From contig QCRZ01000001.1 in NCBI GenBank assembly GCA_003209225.1, positions 1-64,000 on the forward strand: 64,000 nt of DNA, given 5' to 3'. The translations under genes were made by a program, and so were the position numbers. Below are positions 50,031 to 61,921 of this stretch, piece by piece. Below the pieces are notes generated by a model. The model did no database searches, was not told where the DNA came from, and saw only the letters and a program-made list of their open reading frames with translations. Every line of letters begins with the position of its first letter. The first letter of the stretch is position 1. Origin of the DNA: Pelagibacteraceae bacterium AG-464-B04. Lineage in GTDB: Bacteria > Pseudomonadota > Alphaproteobacteria > Pelagibacterales > Pelagibacteraceae.

Positions 50031-50123
50031 GGAGAGATGGGTGAGTTGGTTTAAACCAGTCGTTTGCTAAATGACCGTGCGTGGAAACATGTACCGAGGG
50101 TTCGAATCCCTCTCTCTCCGCCA
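50031..50123 (+). tRNA. tRNA-Ser(GCU)
   Basis: Acceptor GGAGAGA (50031-50037) pairs with TCTCTCC (50113-50119), followed by discriminator G and an encoded CCA (50121-50123). The D stem is GGT/ACC. The anticodon stem GTCGT/ATGAC holds loop TTGCTAA with anticodon GCT. A long variable arm (about 50078-50095) is typical of serine tRNA. The T arm is GAGGG-TTCGAAT-CCCTC. It reads AGC/AGU codons. It marks the junction between housekeeping genes and the polysaccharide island. Confidence 0.97.
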
Positions 50124-50175: not shown

Positions 50176-50973
50176 ATGAAGACAAAATGTATATTACAAG
50201 CAAGAATTTCAAGCTCAAGATTATGGGGAAAAGTATTATTACCAGGTTATGATAAACCTTTACTTCTACATATTGTAGAAAGATTAAAAAAATCTAAATT
50301 ACTAGATGATGTTATAGTTGCCACCTCTTTCGAGAAAATTGACGATATAATTTATAATATTTGTAAAAAGCATAAAATTTCTGTTTTTAGGGGGCATCAT
50401 ACTAATTTGTTAAATAGATATTATCAGTGTGCTAAAAAATTCAAAATTGATACAGTTGTAAGAATTACCTCTGATTGTCCCTTAATAGACTCTAGATTAA
50501 TTGATAAAATTATTGTCTTTTTTAACACTAAAAAAGGGATAGATTATGTAAGTAATATTCATCCAGCAACTTTTCCTGATGGATATGATGTTGAGGTTTT
50601 TAATTTTAAATCTTTAAAAAAATCTTTTTTTGAAGCAAAAAAAAATTTTGAAAGAGAACATGTCACACCCTATATTTGGGAAAATTCAGATAAATTTGTT
50701 ATTAAAAATTATAGTAATTTGAGAGATATTAACTTACACAAAAAATATAGACTTACTTTAGATTATATAGAAGATTACTATGTTATTTTTAAAATTTACC
50801 AAAAAATTTATCCAAAAAAAAAAAATTTTGATTTAAAAGATGTGTTGAATTATCTAAAATCAAATCCTAAAATATTAGTTAATAAAAAATATCTTGGTGT
50901 AAATTGGTATAGGCATCATTTAACTAAATTAAAAACAATTAAAAAAAGTGATACAAATCTTAAATATTTTTAA
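50176..50973 (+). CDS. SpsF-type cytidylyltransferase
   Basis: 265 residues. The N-terminal CILQARISSSRLWGKVLLP motif and RITSDCPLIDSRLIDKII identify the SpsF/COG1861-like nucleotidyltransferase family, related to CMP-sugar synthetases but distinct from NeuA. HPATFPDGYDVEVF and EREHVTPYIW are further family features. It probably activates a sugar acid or similar compound with CTP. It is the first gene after the tRNA and is followed after 8 bases by an aminotransferase, a pairing seen in many polysaccharide clusters. Confidence 0.85.
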   Translation: MKTKCILQARISSSRLWGKVLLPGYDKPLLLHIVERLKKSKLLDDVIVATSFEKIDDIIYNICKKHKISVFRGHHTNLLNRYYQCAKKFKIDTVVRITSDCPLIDSRLIDKIIVFFNTKKGIDYVSNIHPATFPDGYDVEVFNFKSLKKSFFEAKKNFEREHVTPYIWENSDKFVIKNYSNLRDINLHKKYRLTLDYIEDYYVIFKIYQKIYPKKKNFDLKDVLNYLKSNPKILVNKKYLGVNWYRHHLTKLKTIKKSDTNLKYF

Positions 50974-50981
50974 ATTTTAAA

Positions 50982-52313
50982 ATGTATAAAAAATACAAGA
51001 AAAATCCAAAAAAACTTCAGACTTACGCAAGAAAATTAATACCAGGCTTATCACAGCTTTTTGGAAAAAGGCCAGAAATATATTTACCCGGAGGAAATTG
51101 GCCCACTTATTATTCTAAAGCAAAAGGAGTTTATCTTTGGGGAATAGATAAAAAAAAGTTTCTTGACTTTACAATGGTTGGTGTGGGGTCTGCTGTTTTA
51201 GGTTATTCAGACACGGATATAAATAAAGCTGCTAATAAAGCTTTGAAATCAGGATCAATGACAACTTTAAACGTTCCTCAAGAAGTTGAATTAGCTGAGG
51301 TTCTTACAAAGATTCATCCGTGGGCAAATAGCGTTAGATATGCAAGAACTGGTGGCGAAAGCATGTCTATAGCTATAAGAATAGCTAGAGCTTACTCAAA
51401 AAAGGAAAAAATTCTATTTTGTGGTTATCATGGATGGCATGATTGGTATTTATCTGCAAATCTTAAATCAAAGAAAGTTTTAAACACTCACTTGTTGAAA
51501 GGACTTAATCCGTTGGGCGTACCTAGCAATTTAAAAAATACATTAATTCCTTTTAAATTTAATGATTGGAAGGATATAGAAAAAATTGTCAAAAAAAATG
51601 CTAAGTATTGTGCCGCTATAGTTCTTGAGCCATGTAGAGATTTTTTACCTGACAAAAACTATCTTCAAGAACTAAGAATTATAGCAAATAAAAATAATTG
51701 CGTTTTAATATTTGATGAAATTACAAGTGGATGGAGGCTTGGTACTAGTGGCGCTCATAAAAACTTTAAAGTGAACCCTGATATAGCTATTTTTGGAAAA
51801 ACAATAGCTAATGGTATACCAATGGGTGCGATTATAGGAAGAAAAAACATAATGAAATTTGCTACAAAAACTTTTATAAGCAGCGCTCTTTGGACTGAAA
51901 AAATAGGTCCAACTTGTGCTTTAGAATTTATTAAAAAACATAAAAAACTTAATCTTGGAAACAAATTAATACATATTGGGAAAAAGATTAAAAAAATATG
52001 GTTTGATGCAGCAAAAAATTCAAATTTAAACATTCATATTCAAGGAATTGATCCTATGGCAAATTTTAGACTAGAAAACATTAATTGGCCTGTTGCATCC
52101 ACTTTTTTTACGCAAGAAATGCTTAAACATAAAATTTTAGCATCAGAAAAATGCTATGCTAATTATAAGCATACTCCAAAATTACTAGAAAAGTATAAAA
52201 AAGCCTGTTTTAATGTTTTTGAAAAAATTTCTAAATTAGAAAAATCAAATAGTTTGAAAAAAAAATTAGAAGGACCAGTTAAGCAGATGGGTTTTAAGAG
52301 ATTAACTGAATAA
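50982..52313 (+). CDS. Class III PLP aminotransferase (glutamate-1-semialdehyde aminomutase-like)
   Basis: 443 residues. FDEITSGWRLGTSGAH contains the PLP-ring aspartate, and the Schiff-base lysine is in IFGKTIANGIPMGAIIG. The family includes glutamate-1-semialdehyde aminomutase, but this copy sits among sugar genes and more likely acts on a polysaccharide precursor than in haem synthesis. The N-terminus YARKLIPGLSQLFGKRPE matches the polysaccharide-linked subgroup. Substrate unknown. Confidence 0.85.
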   Translation: MYKKYKKNPKKLQTYARKLIPGLSQLFGKRPEIYLPGGNWPTYYSKAKGVYLWGIDKKKFLDFTMVGVGSAVLGYSDTDINKAANKALKSGSMTTLNVPQEVELAEVLTKIHPWANSVRYARTGGESMSIAIRIARAYSKKEKILFCGYHGWHDWYLSANLKSKKVLNTHLLKGLNPLGVPSNLKNTLIPFKFNDWKDIEKIVKKNAKYCAAIVLEPCRDFLPDKNYLQELRIIANKNNCVLIFDEITSGWRLGTSGAHKNFKVNPDIAIFGKTIANGIPMGAIIGRKNIMKFATKTFISSALWTEKIGPTCALEFIKKHKKLNLGNKLIHIGKKIKKIWFDAAKNSNLNIHIQGIDPMANFRLENINWPVASTFFTQEMLKHKILASEKCYANYKHTPKLLEKYKKACFNVFEKISKLEKSNSLKKKLEGPVKQMGFKRLTE

Positions 52314-52391
52314 ATGAATATTATTTACATTAAGGCTCAACAATTATATCTTTATAAAACTTTTTAATAAGAGTATTTTATTAACAATTAT

Positions 52392-53471
52392 ATGTACGAT
52401 ATTGATTTTTTCAAAAATTCAAACACAATTAAAAACAAAATAACAAAAGGTTTTCTTAAAAAATCTGACATTGATGATATTACCGTTGAGTTGAATTCTT
52501 TAAAGAAAGAATCTCCATACATATACAATATAGAAACAACCAATTACTGTAATATGAAATGTGTTATGTGCCCAAGAACCATGTATATGACTAGAAAAAA
52601 TATTTGGATTGATGATGATCTTTTTGAAAAGTTACTAAATAACGTTAAAACACATGAAAAAGATAAACTTGAAAATTTTTGGAATTGGATTGAAAATGAA
52701 TATAATCAAAAAATTGATGAAGTTTCAGAAAATGGTTTTTATTTTTCAGTAATTTCAAAACATCTTGTTTTGCATGGATTTGGTGAACCTTTTTTAGATA
52801 AAAAATTAATTAAACGTATATCAATGTGCACAAAAAAAAATATTCCAACTTATTTTTCATGTACCCCAGCTACAATGACTGTTGAAAAAGCCGAAAAAGC
52901 AATGGAGGCAGGCTTAGGAGTTCTTAAATTTTCTCTTGATGCAATGGATGAAAGAAAAATTCAAAAAATTAGAGGCAAGAGAGCTAATTTTGAAGATTCA
53001 GTTGAAAAAATTATTAAATTATTAGAAATAAAAAAGAAACGAAATTTTAAAACTATTCTTGTCCCTTGCATGATAGATTTAGGATTTGATAATACTGATA
53101 TAACTATGCACAAAGAATTTTTAAAATTTTGGAGTGATAAAAAAGTTTTTGCTTATATAAAGAGTCAAGACAACAGATGGTTATACGAAAATGACAAGGA
53201 TATAAAAAGTAAATCTCATTATAGTCAGCAATATTGTGAATATCCTTGGCTATCAGTATCTATTATGGCCGACGGAAATGTAGTTCCTTGTACACAAATA
53301 TCTAACAGTGAATTAGTTTTAGGTAATATTAATGATAATTCTTTAGAAGAAATCTGGAATGGAAAAAAATATCAAGAACTTAGAAAAATGCATGTTTCAG
53401 GAAATTTTCCTAAAGGCCATAAATGCAATGATAAATGTGACATGAAAAAGCTTTATCAGTATCTAAGTTAG
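52392..53471 (+). CDS. Radical SAM/SPASM domain protein
   Basis: 359 residues. The [4Fe-4S] motif CNMKCVMC (C53, C57, C60) lies in ETTNYCNMKCVMCPRTMY. HLVLHGFGEPFLDKKLI is the usual GEP-type segment. A SPASM-like C-terminal region has cysteines in YCEYPWLSVSI, VVPCTQ and HKCNDKCD. An insertion of about 50 residues separates the iron-sulfur motif from the GEP segment. It may modify a sugar or peptide; the context suggests surface glycan chemistry, but function is open. A 78-base gap precedes it. Confidence 0.82.
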   Translation: MYDIDFFKNSNTIKNKITKGFLKKSDIDDITVELNSLKKESPYIYNIETTNYCNMKCVMCPRTMYMTRKNIWIDDDLFEKLLNNVKTHEKDKLENFWNWIENEYNQKIDEVSENGFYFSVISKHLVLHGFGEPFLDKKLIKRISMCTKKNIPTYFSCTPATMTVEKAEKAMEAGLGVLKFSLDAMDERKIQKIRGKRANFEDSVEKIIKLLEIKKKRNFKTILVPCMIDLGFDNTDITMHKEFLKFWSDKKVFAYIKSQDNRWLYENDKDIKSKSHYSQQYCEYPWLSVSIMADGNVVPCTQISNSELVLGNINDNSLEEIWNGKKYQELRKMHVSGNFPKGHKCNDKCDMKKLYQYLS

Positions 53472-53497
53472 TCATAATGGAAATGTAAAAAGATTTC

Positions 53498-54379
53498 ATG
53501 AACTTAAAAAAAAGAAAAATACTAAAATTTAAAAACTACAAACCAATAATTATTTTCTTAAAAAAATTTAATTTAAATAGTTTTAATGATAATGTTAAAG
53601 TCAAAATTTATTTAAAATTTTTTGAATTATCTTACTTAATAAAAGAAATCTCAGAAGACACCAAAACGACAAGGTACCCAACATTTTTAAGAACTGTAAA
53701 GGCTGGAGAAAAAAAACCTTTTACTTATGAGCTAAGTGATCTTTGCAGGTTGCATTGGATAATTCTTTCTAGAAAAGCTTTAAATACATTGGAATATGGT
53801 TCTGGCTTTTCAACTATTTTTATGGCTGATGCATGCTATATTTTGTCTCATTTTTTTAATAATACATTAAGTGAAATTAGAGTTGAAAATAAATTTCATG
53901 TTTATGCTTTGGAAGAAAGTTTAGAATATTTAAAAATTACCAAGAAACGAGTTCCACAATTTTTATCTAAATTTGTTTCTTTAATTCATAGTAAAATTAA
54001 TCTTACCCAGTACGATGGAAGGTTTGTTACAACATATTCAACAATACCTGATATATCGCCAGATTTTATTTATTTAGATGGACCTTCAACTTTTGTGAAG
54101 AAACGTTTAAAAGGTTTCAGCATTAACAATATTTCAAGATTTCCGATGTCATCAGACCTTTTAACTTTTGAATACTTTTTAGAACCTGGAACTTTTATAA
54201 TTGTTGACGGAAGAACTGCTAATTCAAGATTTTTAAAAGATTATTTTAAAAGAAAATGGAAATATTATCATGACATAAAAGGTGATTGTCATTATTTCGA
54301 ATTAAACGAAACACCACTTGGCCCTTATAATAAAATTAAACTGAAGTTTTGTCTTGGTGATAAAATTAAATTTTTTTAA
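53498..54379 (+). CDS. Rossmann-fold (methyltransferase-like) protein, unknown
   Basis: 293 residues. LEYGSGFSTIFMADACYIL (about residues 98-116) resembles SAM-binding motif I, DFIYLDGPSTFVKKR resembles the motif II/III region, and EPGTFIIVDGRTANSRFL sits where a metal/substrate loop would be. Together these suggest a class I methyltransferase fold without a recognisable substrate type. It lies between the radical SAM gene (26 bases) and neuB. An active methyltransferase is plausible, not shown. Confidence 0.6.
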   Translation: MNLKKRKILKFKNYKPIIIFLKKFNLNSFNDNVKVKIYLKFFELSYLIKEISEDTKTTRYPTFLRTVKAGEKKPFTYELSDLCRLHWIILSRKALNTLEYGSGFSTIFMADACYILSHFFNNTLSEIRVENKFHVYALEESLEYLKITKKRVPQFLSKFVSLIHSKINLTQYDGRFVTTYSTIPDISPDFIYLDGPSTFVKKRLKGFSINNISRFPMSSDLLTFEYFLEPGTFIIVDGRTANSRFLKDYFKRKWKYYHDIKGDCHYFELNETPLGPYNKIKLKFCLGDKIKFF

Positions 54380-54426
54380 ATTAATAAGCAAACCTAATAC
54401 AAAATATGCATTATTTTTAAAACCAA

Positions 54427-55455
54427 ATGTTTAAAATAGGAAATAGAAAAATTGGAAATAAATATAAGCCATTAATTATTTGTGAACTTGGAATTAACCA
54501 TTTTGGCAATTTATCAATTGCAAAAAAAATGGTTGATCTAGCTTACAAAAATGGTGCCGAAGCTATTAAAAACCAAACACATATCTTAAACGCTGAAATG
54601 ATAGATAAAGCAAAAGAAGTCATACCCCCAAATTCAAATAAATCAATTTTTGAAGTTATTAAAGAAAATCATATGTCTTTTGAAAATGAAATTAAATTAA
54701 AAAAATATGTTGAAAAAAAAAAATTGATATATTTGAGTACTCCTTTTTCAAGAGAAGCAGCTCACAAATTATACAAATTAGGAGTAAAATTATTTAAAAT
54801 TGGATCAGGTGAATGTAATAATTTACCTTTAATTGAAGAAATTTGTAAATTTAAAAAACCAATAATTATGAGTACAGGAATGAACGATCTTAAATCCATT
54901 AAAGAAAGCGTTAAAATAATTGAAAAATATAAAATTAACTATGCTCTTTTGCATTGCGTCAGCGAGTACCCAGTAAATTATAAAAATATTAAACTTGATT
55001 ACATTCAAACTTTAAAAAAAAACTTTCCACGTGCAATAGTGGGTTATTCAGACCATTCAATAGGAATAACACCTTGCATTGCTGCAATGGCAAAAGGAGC
55101 ATGTATTATTGAAAAACATTTTACTGATAATAAAAAAAGAAAAGGTCCTGATATAATATGTTCTATGGACCCATTAGAACTATCTGCTTTAAAAAAATGC
55201 TCTGAGATAATTTTTTTATCTAATGGATCCAAAAAAAAAATAACTATCACAGAAAAAAAAACCTCAAATTTTGCATTTTCTTCAGTAGTCTCAATAAAAA
55301 ATATCCTTAAAAATGAAAAATTATCAAATAAAAATGTTTGGATTAAGAGGCCTGGTACAGGAGATTTTCCAGCAAAGGATTATAAAAAACTATTAGGTAA
55401 AAAGGCTAAAAAATTTATATTTAAAAATAAATTTATTAAGAAAAAAGATGTCTAA
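54427..55455 (+). CDS. neuB: NeuB-like sialic/nonulosonic acid synthase
   Basis: 342 residues. A TIM-barrel NeuB domain (ICELGINHFGNLSIAKKMV, LYLSTPFSREA-like segment, GYSDHSIGITPCIAA) is followed by a C-terminal SAF domain (NVWIKRPGTGDFPAKDY, about residues 299-315). The family condenses phosphoenolpyruvate with ManNAc or related 6-carbon sugars to 9-carbon nonulosonic acids. Whether the product is sialic, legionaminic or pseudaminic type cannot be read. It overlaps neuC by 8 bases. Confidence 0.87.
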   Translation: MFKIGNRKIGNKYKPLIICELGINHFGNLSIAKKMVDLAYKNGAEAIKNQTHILNAEMIDKAKEVIPPNSNKSIFEVIKENHMSFENEIKLKKYVEKKKLIYLSTPFSREAAHKLYKLGVKLFKIGSGECNNLPLIEEICKFKKPIIMSTGMNDLKSIKESVKIIEKYKINYALLHCVSEYPVNYKNIKLDYIQTLKKNFPRAIVGYSDHSIGITPCIAAMAKGACIIEKHFTDNKKRKGPDIICSMDPLELSALKKCSEIIFLSNGSKKKITITEKKTSNFAFSSVVSIKNILKNEKLSNKNVWIKRPGTGDFPAKDYKKLLGKKAKKFIFKNKFIKKKDV

Positions 55456-56581
55456 ACAAAACAAAAAAAAGATTTTGTTTTTAACTGGTTCCAGGGCCGA
55501 TTACGGAAAAATGAAATCTTTAATCATCGAAACCAAAAAAAGTAAAAAATTTCAACCATTAATTGCTGTTACCGGTATGCATTTACAAAAAATTCATGGA
55601 TATACTTTTAATGAAATTAAAAATGATTTTAAAGATATTAAAATTTATAAATTTTTTAATCAAAGTTATAAAGATTCAATGGATATTATTTTATCCAAAA
55701 CCATCACTCTTTTTAATAAAACTTTAAAATCAATTAAACCTGATTTAGTTGTTATCCATGGGGATAGATCGGAAACATTAGCAGCATCTATTCATTGCAA
55801 TCTTAACAATATATTAATAGCACATATAGAGGGTGGTGAAGTCTCTGGAACGGTTGACGAATCTATTAGGCATGCAACAACTAAACTTTCGCATATACAT
55901 TTTGTTTCTAATAAAAAAGCTAAAAATGTTTTAATTAAAATGGGTGAGATTAAGAAAAACATTTATATAATTGGTTCACCTGAAGTTGATATAATGATAA
56001 AAAAAGATCTCCCTTCTTTTGAAAACTTAATGTTAAGATATAATTTAAAATTTAATGAATATGGAATTTTTCTATTCCACCCAGTGACAACTTTAAAAAA
56101 AAAGGAAGTCATTAAGCAATGCCAAATTCTATTTAATGTTTTGAAAAAATCTTTAAAAAATTACGTAATTATTTACCCAAACAATGACACTTTTTCTGAT
56201 ATAATTTTTAAATATATTAAAAAACTCAAATTTTCTACCAGGTTTAAAATCCTTCCGAGCCTAAGATTCGAATATTATCTCACTTTATTAAAAAATTCTG
56301 AATTTATAATTGGAAACTCAAGCTCAGGAATAAGAGAAGCTCCAATTTATGGAATTAAAACAATTAACTTAGGAAATAGACAAAAAAACAGGTCAGGCAA
56401 CAAATTTATCTTTAATTTAAAATTTAAAGAATCTCAACTTTTAAAAAAAATTAAATATATAAAAAAAGAAAAAAATAAAAAATTTTTTGGTTTTGGAAGA
56501 GGTGATTCTGCAAAAAAATTTATTAAAACTTTAAACAAAGAAATTTTCTGGAAAACAGATAAACAGAAGTATTTTTCGTAA
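55448..56581 (+). CDS. neuC: Hydrolysing UDP-GlcNAc 2-epimerase, NeuC-like
   Basis: 377 residues. It has TGSRADYGKMKSLI at the N-terminus, IHGDRSETLAASI, AHIEGGEVSGTVDESIRHA and GNSSSGIREAPIYG, all NeuC/WecB-superfamily signatures, with the EVSGTVDESIRHA form pointing to NeuC. It converts UDP-GlcNAc (or a derivative) to ManNAc-type sugar plus UDP, feeding the NeuB reaction next door. Last gene of the first island block. Confidence 0.87.
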   Translation: MSKQNKKKILFLTGSRADYGKMKSLIIETKKSKKFQPLIAVTGMHLQKIHGYTFNEIKNDFKDIKIYKFFNQSYKDSMDIILSKTITLFNKTLKSIKPDLVVIHGDRSETLAASIHCNLNNILIAHIEGGEVSGTVDESIRHATTKLSHIHFVSNKKAKNVLIKMGEIKKNIYIIGSPEVDIMIKKDLPSFENLMLRYNLKFNEYGIFLFHPVTTLKKKEVIKQCQILFNVLKKSLKNYVIIYPNNDTFSDIIFKYIKKLKFSTRFKILPSLRFEYYLTLLKNSEFIIGNSSSGIREAPIYGIKTINLGNRQKNRSGNKFIFNLKFKESQLLKKIKYIKKEKNKKFFGFGRGDSAKKFIKTLNKEIFWKTDKQKYFS

Positions 56582-56587
56582 ATTTAA

Positions 56588-56845
56588 TTAATTATTAAGT
56601 TCATTTTGTATTTTTAAAATAAATTCTTTAATAATCTTTTTATCATTTGGATTAAATATTTGATCTTTAGAATTTGCTTTAATTAATTCATTTCTTAATT
56701 TATTTCTTATTATTTCTCTACCTTGATCGTTAGTTAAGTAATTAAGTTTATTCTCGTATTTATTTACAGTCATGCCTATAGTTAGTTGATATAAAATATA
56801 TACTCCAATTAGTATAAAAAGACTTTTATAGATAAATATTTTCAT
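56588..56845 (-). CDS. Small single-pass membrane protein, unknown
   Basis: 85 residues. One N-terminal hydrophobic helix (about residues 7-24) could be an anchor or signal. The rest is charged and probably helical (GREIIRNKLRNELIKANSKDQ). No known family recognised. It lies 26 bases downstream of the GT-C glycosyltransferase on the same strand, so the two may act together. Confidence 0.6.
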   Translation of the reverse strand: MKIFIYKSLFILIGVYILYQLTIGMTVNKYENKLNYLTNDQGREIIRNKLRNELIKANSKDQIFNPNDKKIIKEFILKIQNELNN

Positions 56846-58548: not shown

Positions 58549-60093
58549 TTAAACAAAACCCTTAACAAGCGCTTTAAAGCCTTTAAAATATCTTTTTATA
58601 TCTTCTAGACTTCTTATATTGAGGATTGCTTTCATTATGTATCTAGGTCTCATGTAAAATGTTTTAAAAGCTTTACGACTCATTTTTAATACTTCTTCTT
58701 TATTCTTATATCCCTCAGGCAAAAATACCACATTCCATCCTTGATATTCGGTAAAATCATTGGTTGTAAGTTTTCCCCACTTGCCTTTTTTAATTTCATC
58801 ATACAAAGCAGTTCCAGGATAAGGTGTAGCAACACTGAATTGAGCATATTCTGGATCTAATCTTAAAGCATCTTTAATGGTTTGTTCTGCTAGTTCAGGA
58901 GTTTCTCCTGGCAGTGCAATCATAAAAGATCCTCTTACTTCAATACCAGCTTTTTTAGTCCATTTAGCTACTTCCATCATATGTTCCATTGATTTATTTT
59001 TTCTATTAGTTTTTATGTTTTCGGCTAATTGTTGAACACCAGTTTCGTAACCATAGAAAATATTCCAACAACCAGCTTTTTTCATTAAATATAATATTTC
59101 TTGATTAACAGTGTTAACAGCAGCGTAGCATGACCATATAACATCGAGATTAGCTTCTATGAGTAGAGTGCAAAATTCCTTCATCCATTTTTTGTGATAA
59201 CTCATTGTGTCATCCCAAAAGGAAATTTCTTTTACTCCGTATTTTTTAACCACATCTTTTATCTCTTCCACAACTTTTTGAGGACTTCTTCTTCGAGCAG
59301 TAGTAGCTGCTTGATCACAAAATGTGCAAACATATGGGCAACCTCTAATAACAACCATATTTGTCATTGGTAATTTTTTGTATTGATTTGGTAACGGAAC
59401 ATATCTTTCCATAGGAAACAATTCCCTTGCTGGTAAAGGTAAAAAATCTAAGTCTTTGATAATTTCTCCTGGTAAATTTTTTATAATTTCATCATGATTC
59501 CTAAAAATAATTCCTTTAATACTTTTCATTAATTCTAGGTTTTTTAAAAATTTTTCACGATTAAAATCACTTTCCGAAAACTTTTTAAGAATATCATGAA
59601 TTACAGTTTCACCTTCGGGATGATAAGAGACTATATCAATTGGTTTAATGTTTTTTGCCGCATCTGTACCCGCAACATTTGCATGTGCACCTCCCAATAT
59701 AATTAACAAATTAGGAAATTCTTTTCGCAATCTTTCAGCTAACGTTGTTGATGCTGGTAGAGCATAAGTTGTTGCTGAAATTCCGATAGATCTTGGTTTT
59801 TTTTTTCTCACAATTTCAACAATCTCATCATGACTTAATTCGAGAGCTATACAATCTAAAGCGGCTATTCCAAAACCAAATTTTCTTAAATATGCAGCTA
59901 ATGACGCTATACCAAGTGGAATTAAATCTCCTTTTAAATCACCCAAATCTTTTTTACCATATCTGTGAGCATAATTTATTCCTATTGATGTTGGAGGAAA
60001 TAAAAGCATTATATCAATAGCCTCATTTTTAGGTTCAAAAGCTCTATCTATAAGATCATTCCGAGAAACTTTTTTTTTGGCTTTATAAAACAT
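58549..60093 (-). CDS. B12-binding-type radical SAM protein
   Basis: 514 residues. An N-terminal cobalamin-binding-like domain (about residues 28-190) with IGISATTYALPAS and ILGGAHANVAG is followed by a radical SAM core with CPYVCTFC (C252, C256, C259) and IEVRGSFMIALPGETPELA. The cobalamin domain lacks the DxHxxG histidine motif: the corresponding place reads LDCIALEL. Homologues of this architecture methylate or rearrange unactivated carbons (HpnJ/BchE-like). The substrate here is unknown; the neighbours suggest glycan or lipid modification. Confidence 0.83.
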   Translation of the reverse strand: MFYKAKKKVSRNDLIDRAFEPKNEAIDIMLLFPPTSIGINYAHRYGKKDLGDLKGDLIPLGIASLAAYLRKFGFGIAALDCIALELSHDEIVEIVRKKKPRSIGISATTYALPASTTLAERLRKEFPNLLIILGGAHANVAGTDAAKNIKPIDIVSYHPEGETVIHDILKKFSESDFNREKFLKNLELMKSIKGIIFRNHDEIIKNLPGEIIKDLDFLPLPARELFPMERYVPLPNQYKKLPMTNMVVIRGCPYVCTFCDQAATTARRRSPQKVVEEIKDVVKKYGVKEISFWDDTMSYHKKWMKEFCTLLIEANLDVIWSCYAAVNTVNQEILYLMKKAGCWNIFYGYETGVQQLAENIKTNRKNKSMEHMMEVAKWTKKAGIEVRGSFMIALPGETPELAEQTIKDALRLDPEYAQFSVATPYPGTALYDEIKKGKWGKLTTNDFTEYQGWNVVFLPEGYKNKEEVLKMSRKAFKTFYMRPRYIMKAILNIRSLEDIKRYFKGFKALVKGFV

Positions 60094-61200: not shown

Positions 61201-61921
61201 TAAGAATATAAATAAACAAGATCTTTTTCCAAAGGAAGTTCCAAAACTAACAGAAAAACAAAAAATTATTAAAGATAATTTTATGGAATATTGGCTTAAA
61301 GTTTTAAGAAAAAATTACGGTATTGTAGATAGATTTAATCATGGCATTGTAGCAAAAAACAAACCAAACAATTTTCTTAAAACTTTAGAAATAGGAGCGG
61401 GTATAGGTGAGCATTTAAATTATGAAAAATTGTCAGATAATCAAAAAAAGAATTATTTTGCAATGGATAAGAGAGAAAATTTATTAAAGATTATTTCTGA
61501 AGAGCATCCATTTGTGCAAACAGTTTTAGGTGACTGCGAAAAGAAGTTTAATTTTGAAAACAATACTTTTGACAGAGTTATTGCAATACATATTTTGGAA
61601 CATTTGCCAAATTTACCAAATACAATAAATGAAGTATCTAGAGTTTTAAAAAAAAATGGCCTTTTTCAAATCGTAATACCTTGTGAAGGAAGTTTAGCTT
61701 ATACAATTGCTAGAAAAATCTCAGCTGAAAGAATTTTTAAAAAGAAATATAAAACAAATTATGATTGGTTTATAAAAAGTGAACATCTAAATTTACCACA
61801 TGAAATTATTAATGAGTTGAAAAAAAAATTTTTAATAATTAAAAAAAATTATTTCCCAATTCCCCTATCATTTGAATTCTGCAATCTTTGTATTTCAATA
61901 AATTTAAAATTATTAACTTAA
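61193..61921 (+). CDS. Class I SAM-dependent methyltransferase (type 11)
   Basis: 242 residues from the ATG at 61193; a TTG one codon earlier is also open. Motif I is KTLEIGAGIGEHLN, the acidic motif II is YFAMDKRENLL, and the FDRVIAIHILEHLPNLPNT stretch is typical of Methyltransf_11. In this cluster it probably methylates a sugar or a lipid-linked intermediate. It overlaps the GT2 gene by 8 bases. Confidence 0.85.
   Translation: MINKNINKQDLFPKEVPKLTEKQKIIKDNFMEYWLKVLRKNYGIVDRFNHGIVAKNKPNNFLKTLEIGAGIGEHLNYEKLSDNQKKNYFAMDKRENLLKIISEEHPFVQTVLGDCEKKFNFENNTFDRVIAIHILEHLPNLPNTINEVSRVLKKNGLFQIVIPCEGSLAYTIARKISAERIFKKKYKTNYDWFIKSEHLNLPHEIINELKKKFLIIKKNYFPIPLSFEFCNLCISINLKLLT

Follow-up and report, generated by a model that had tools for sequence, protein, structure and literature searches.

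An operon beside a tRNA-Ser gene in a glycan island

The window, the whole stretch of 64,000 nucleotides that we analyzed, is SAR11-like: among named organisms, it is Pelagibacteraceae that have the radical SAM proteins closest to its own. Directly 3' of a tRNA-Ser(GCT) gene (50031..50123, + strand, ARAGORN), which forms the left edge of a surface-glycan island of about 19 kb, six open reading frames (ORFs) run from 50176 to 56581. All six lie on the + strand, and their coordinates were confirmed. From 5' to 3', the intergenic gaps are 8, 78, 26, and 47 bp, and the last two genes, neuB and neuC, overlap by 8 bp. On the right flank, an ORF on the opposite strand ends at 56588. A first-pass annotation had proposed a plausible operon from six genes in one direction with small gaps, and the ORFs, coordinates, and gaps agree with that view. 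Beyond the far end of the island are apparent core genes, identified as transglycosylase-, dapA-, smpB-, and folK-like by reading their translations. The genome assembly is 63% complete, and absences are read against that figure.

By their family matches, NeuB and NeuC are the best-assigned genes of the operon. NeuC (55448..56581; 377 aa), a hydrolysing UDP-GlcNAc 2-epimerase, matches Epimerase_2 at 1e-71 and passes the NCBIfam model TIGR03568 with 380 bits against a cut-off of 235.9. It is equally close to 5xvs and 4zht. NeuB (54427..55455; 342 aa) is a nonulosonic acid synthase with a SAF domain (PF03102 at 7e-70, and PF08666) and the only NeuB of the assembly. Its score of 348 bits falls below the NnaB NCBIfam cut-off of 399.65. 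The nearest solved structure is SiaC, an N-acetylneuraminate synthase (1xuu, 371 bits), with SpsE at 138 bits and pseudaminic acid synthase at 126, and the arginine changed in 4ipi/4ipj is conserved. These matches bear out the earlier view that NeuC and NeuB imply a nonulosonic acid, and the operon is very probably a cluster for a nonulosonic acid, a sialic-acid-like sugar of nine carbons. None of its six genes encodes a 4,6-dehydratase, a DegT aminotransferase, or an N-acetyltransferase, and it contains neither a LegB/LegC/LegH nor a PseB/PseC set. No DegT gene of the LegC/PseC type was found among the island ORFs, and an epimerase/dehydratase-like protein at 61888 scores 117 against a LegB cut-off of 475. 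Because NeuC passes its cut-off, NeuB is nearest SiaC, and the operon has no Leg or Pse set, a Neu5Ac-type backbone seems the simplest reading; a legionaminic-type backbone would also be possible.

The first gene (50176..50973; 265 aa) encodes an SpsF-type cytidylyltransferase. It matches PF02348 (CTP_transf_3) at 2e-31 with 110 bits and scores 39 against the KdsB equivalog cut-off of 155, indicating a CTP_transf_3 fold that is not KdsB. Its nearest solved relative, the cytidylyltransferase 6oew (177 bits), aligns with residues 1-237, nearly the full length. Because the contig has no other CTP_transf_3 protein, NeuA is absent from the island; a neuA elsewhere in the island, which would have counted against the first-pass reading, was not found on the contig. 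In B. subtilis, spsF is needed for legionaminic acid at the spore surface, not for its synthesis, and has been assigned the CMP step (PMC7439481). We consider it likely that SpsF is the CMP-transferring enzyme of the cluster, and it would transfer CMP from CTP to a nonulosonic acid, for which the precedent is B. subtilis genetics only (PMC7439481). The suggestion that SpsF takes the place of the absent NeuA is thus supported, but the replacement is not unusual as had been supposed: it is known in kind, because the B. subtilis gene has been assigned this step. Elsewhere in the genome are a KdsB-like protein and, outside the island at L006:6190-7500, a cytidylyltransferase (CTP_transf_3) domain fused to an RraA/aldolase-like domain. 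The latter could in principle be a second CMP-sugar enzyme.

The second gene (50982..52313; 443 aa) encodes a class III PLP aminotransferase, AT3 (PF00202, Aminotran_3, 4e-38), whose PLP lysine, Lys273, is invariant in 12 sequences. We rejected its assignment as a plain HemL glutamate-1-semialdehyde aminomutase, since it scores 182 bits against TIGR00713, far below the cut-off of 527. The fourth gene (53498..54379; 293 aa) has no Pfam match, and the predicted model of its product (pLDDT 53) is too poor for use. Homologues are found in two other radical SAM loci, L073 and L081, and the one at L073:16961-17746 matches Methyltransf_24 at 2e-6. The protein, previously described as a Rossmann protein, thus looks like a probable class I SAM-dependent methyltransferase. 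The earlier family calls for all the other genes held.

The third gene (52392..53471; 359 aa) encodes a twitch-type radical SAM enzyme (Radical_SAM 1e-14 and SPASM 4e-17 in Pfam). In 23 homologues, the CxxxCxxC cluster motif (Cys53, Cys57, and Cys60) and the cysteines of a single four-cysteine auxiliary cluster (Cys282, Cys300, Cys345, and Cys349) are invariant. So is Cys157, which lies at the end of a predicted barrel strand and is additional to the seven cluster cysteines. A profile search against solved structures placed BtrN best (E = 1e-14), and the C-terminal part of the enzyme aligns with that of BtrN. A fold search with the predicted model (pLDDT 88) also returned BtrN first (E = 1e-9), followed by DesII, SuiB, and BlsE. 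The match to BtrN has a TM score of 0.47 by query length and 0.66 by target length at 17% identity. Because such fold matches are moderate, the model would name only a neighbourhood and not a reaction, with DesII, SuiB, and BlsE nearly as close. BtrN performs a two-electron oxidation of a cyclitol hydroxyl, with its four-cysteine auxiliary cluster as the likely electron acceptor (PMC9012708). For the operon enzyme, we infer a two-electron oxidation of a sugar hydroxyl.

Two other parts of the island deserve mention. On the opposite strand at 58549-60093, a B12-binding radical SAM protein with HpnJ/BchE-like scores below cut-off adjoins a PMT_2-type protein. Further on, at L005:2910-9612 (contig 62910-69612, partly past the window), a nucleotide-sugar dehydrogenase-SDR domain fusion is followed by GFO/IDH/MocA, HddA-, HddC-, GmhA-, and GmhB-like genes and a transaldolase above its curated cut-off. 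These genes are likely a GDP-heptose branch of the same glycan island.

Gene company of AT3 and the radical SAM enzyme

AT3 relatives are found in 33 of 197 family genomes and in 12 of 399 genomes sampled from the phylum, five of which lie outside the family and have strong scores. With such occurrence in the family and in other Pseudomonadota, we rejected the idea that AT3 is novel. AT3 and the cytidylyltransferase are fused at 24 loci and adjacent at another 24, or 48 of 63 distinct loci in counts that ignore kinship. Within 8 kb of AT3 we found a cytidylyltransferase at 57/63 loci, NeuB at 47/63, and an aldo/keto reductase at 37/63; NeuC is mostly absent around AT3. These locus counts mix complete loci with loci cut by contig ends, the ORFs were called mechanically, and neighbours were labelled with small HMMs built here. 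Counted by genome, NeuB occurs in 31 of the 33 with AT3 versus 98 of the 164 others (p = 8e-5). The AT3 subfamily is widely partnered with cytidylyltransferases for nonulosonic acids and is not exotic. The first-pass annotation had placed this enzyme outside the standard routes, a view corrected by these counts; its suggestion of extra amino chemistry is supported.

Single proteins of 828-978 aa at L107 and L114 combine an aldo/keto reductase, SpsF, and AT3. Judging from length and matches, L044 probably holds the same three-part fusion. Fusions of this kind suggest a single route that draws on an oxidoreductase, an aminotransferase, and CMP transfer. In the AT3 tree, the clade with the window protein (n = 14) is rich in NeuC and has a radical SAM gene at 6/14 loci and an aldo/keto reductase at 0/14. 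Its sister clade (n = 44) shows the reverse, with an aldo/keto reductase at 35/44 and a radical SAM gene at 0/44; these counts, too, ignore kinship. This is the pattern expected if the radical SAM enzyme occupies the oxidoreductase slot. As a set of independent events, the mutual exclusion of the two genes is weakened, since a single deep branching of the AT3 tree separates them.

What is rare and informative in the operon is the radical SAM enzyme. Of the 197 family genomes, 4 carry its gene, counting that of the window, and in a phylum sample none of 298 other genomes does. A wider scan found relatives in SAR11 single cells, Nitrospina, Rhodospirillales, and others, as well as in viral contigs at 33-37% identity; the phage record collection gave no match. 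For AT3, phage records gave only distant matches, several annotated as HemL, and viral contigs only matches of 24-36% identity.

Where the radical SAM gene recurs, its company is a cytidylyltransferase, a PLP aminotransferase, and NeuB. The aminotransferase is class III in SAR11 and DegT in Rhodospirillales and phage contigs, so that its class varies by lineage within a constant gene set. In the Rhodospirillales loci L078 and L080 and in viral contig L085, SpsF and a DegT aminotransferase are followed directly by the radical SAM gene; in L085, NeuB comes next, and the four genes overlap or abut. Contigs L085 and L086 look genuinely viral because they carry, respectively, a DNA polymerase of a phage family and a portal protein. 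The run at L085:4273-8123 is one of several viral examples (also L086-L089) with SpsF, a DegT aminotransferase, a radical SAM gene, and a short NeuB that has no SAF domain. In none of the loci compared did the radical SAM gene lie beside an aldo/keto reductase. Proteins of 1,097-1,103 aa at L081:10001-13312 and L082:4196-7489 have the core of this radical SAM enzyme at the N terminus and no twitch domain, and their remaining >800 aa have no Pfam match.

The radical SAM gene and NeuB are strongly but not strictly linked: of 25 radical SAM loci, 18 have NeuB within about 8 kb and seven do not. Three of the NeuB-free loci (L075, L077, and L079) look flagellar or like flagellin-glycosylation loci, judged by eye from protein starts; in these GC-rich regions ORFs were picked by codon-position GC, and Pfam mostly matched shadow frames. 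L077, from Roseospira visakhapatnamensis JA131, carries the radical SAM gene and shows no NeuB within 10 kb. The gene set sought in other genomes thus recurs with NeuB and a cytidylyltransferase, and NeuB is missing from part of the loci. Clusters without neuB/neuC, which the first-pass annotation took to speak against its reading, exist in part: NeuB is missing from the 8 kb around AT3 at 16 of the 63 loci, some of them cut by contig ends, in addition to the seven radical SAM loci.

A proposed route and its alternatives

For the reactions, their order, and the carbon modified, we offer a proposal built on the observed operon, gene families, cofactor residues, and gene associations. NeuC would convert UDP-GlcNAc to ManNAc, or a close relative to its manno form, and NeuB would join the ManNAc-type product to phosphoenolpyruvate, giving a Neu5Ac-like acid. 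With its BtrN-like build, the radical SAM enzyme would abstract a hydrogen at a hydroxyl-bearing carbon and pass an electron to the auxiliary cluster, so that a ketone or aldehyde remains. This carbonyl would become an amine through AT3, which we infer to aminate a keto sugar acid, and SpsF would couple the aminated product to CMP. The fourth protein would probably methylate the sugar. For the aminated position, our guess is a side-chain carbon of the acid.

An operon for a nonulosonic acid with extra amino chemistry, as had been suggested from the outset, is supported by the NeuB and NeuC families and the AT3 associations. With somewhat less than even confidence, we favour the reading that its product is a nonulosonic acid with an extra amino group, made through radical SAM oxidation and AT3 and activated with CMP for use in a cell-surface glycan; we are slightly more guarded about the two steps themselves, in which the radical SAM enzyme would oxidize and AT3 would then aminate. 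An order of oxidation, amination, and activation accounts for the tie between AT3 and the cytidylyltransferase, and for the aldo/keto reductase in the sister clade. The first-pass annotation set the radical SAM enzyme outside the standard routes; the oxidation is our proposal for it.

The radical SAM enzyme may instead be an epimerase that abstracts a hydrogen and returns one from a cysteine thiol, changing a stereocentre, while another oxidoreductase of the island supplies the keto substrate of AT3. Invariant Cys157 could be the hydrogen donor, and the downstream part of the island has both a GFO/IDH/MocA oxidoreductase and an SDR domain. We regard this as unlikely: several lineages pair the gene with a PLP aminotransferase, it was never found beside an aldo/keto reductase, and the first match in both sequence and fold comparison, BtrN, is a dehydrogenase. 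Legionaminic and pseudaminic acids receive their extra amino groups on the hexose, and it is conceivable, though again rather doubtful, that amination and radical chemistry act here on a six-carbon precursor (UDP-GlcNAc or ManNAc), leading by an unusual route to a legionaminic-like diamino acid. Members of the NeuC and NeuB families also act on legionaminic precursors, in keeping with the equal closeness of NeuC to its two structures. However, the fusion partner of AT3 is the cytidylyltransferase, an enzyme that works on the completed acid, and not NeuC or a dehydratase, and the island has no LegC/PseC-type DegT gene.

In an ordinary Neu5Ac cluster, NeuC, NeuB, and SpsF would simply yield CMP-Neu5Ac and the other genes would be passengers, in line with an island that is a mosaic with several genes of other sugar routes. 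Two findings make this improbable: in many genomes the radical SAM gene sits in a tight same-strand run with a cytidylyltransferase and NeuB, and AT3 is found fused to cytidylyltransferases. It is more improbable still that SpsF and AT3 form a separate route to a CMP-activated amino compound that is made without NeuB. The 16 NeuB-less AT3 loci point in that direction, but several of them end at contig ends, and NeuB is somewhere in nearly all AT3 genomes.

We tentatively suggest that oxidation of a nonulosonic acid by a BtrN-like enzyme, PLP-dependent amination, and CMP activation constitute an undescribed route of SAR11, other bacteria, and some marine phages, a claim we make with more reserve than that for the product. 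A literature search for radical SAM and nonulosonic in one paper found none, and one for SpsF with glutamate-1-semialdehyde and NeuB found no paper, in a coverage outside which most subscription papers lie. If the proposal is true, the synthesis of nonulosonic acids would gain a radical SAM step, a chemistry new to the class. Few cells in the sea are as common as SAR11, whose surface sugars are a contact point for phages and grazers. The module in phage contigs raises the question of why phages carry the set.

Comparison with known systems

Like the NeuC-NeuB-NeuA pathway to Neu5Ac, the operon has a NeuC above its curated cut-off and a NeuB nearest N-acetylneuraminate synthase. It differs in having SpsF and no NeuA in the island, and in the addition of AT3, the radical SAM enzyme, and the probable methyltransferase. 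The B. subtilis sps pathway to CMP-legionaminic acid (PMC7439481) shares a NeuB-family synthase and an SpsF-type cytidylyltransferase without NeuA, SpsF being likened by family. Counterparts of SpsM, SpsC, and SpsD are missing from the operon, which has a class III aminotransferase and a radical SAM enzyme.

In the O-antigen locus of Legionella pneumophila serogroup 6/12, a class III aminotransferase stands next to an acylneuraminate cytidylyltransferase, and HisF/HisH and NeuB are in the locus as well (PMC3694923). By annotation, the adjoining aminotransferase and cytidylyltransferase and the presence of NeuB are common to both loci. That locus also has PseG, DegT, CapD, and an aldo/keto reductase, and its published table contains no radical SAM gene (PMC3694923). 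In Leptospira interrogans, an aminotransferase not yet assigned a firm step is a neighbour of neuB2 and neuA2.

The synthesis of Kdo8N resembles the operon in proposed logic only: a keto-deoxy sugar acid is oxidized, transaminated, and activated with CMP, by KdnB, KdnA, and KdsB. There, KdnA is the transaminase and KdsB adds CMP. In Shewanella, the 8-oxidase KdnB oxidizes Kdo in the first step to 8-amino-Kdo; it is an iron-type alcohol dehydrogenase, and the acid has eight carbons (PMC5125639).

BtrN, first in sequence and fold comparison, shares the radical SAM core and a twitch domain with four cysteines. The operon enzyme is distant from it, with extra sequence between motif and barrel and the invariant Cys157. 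In butirosin synthesis an aminotransferase acts after BtrN, a dehydrogenase-aminotransferase logic like the one we propose for the operon.
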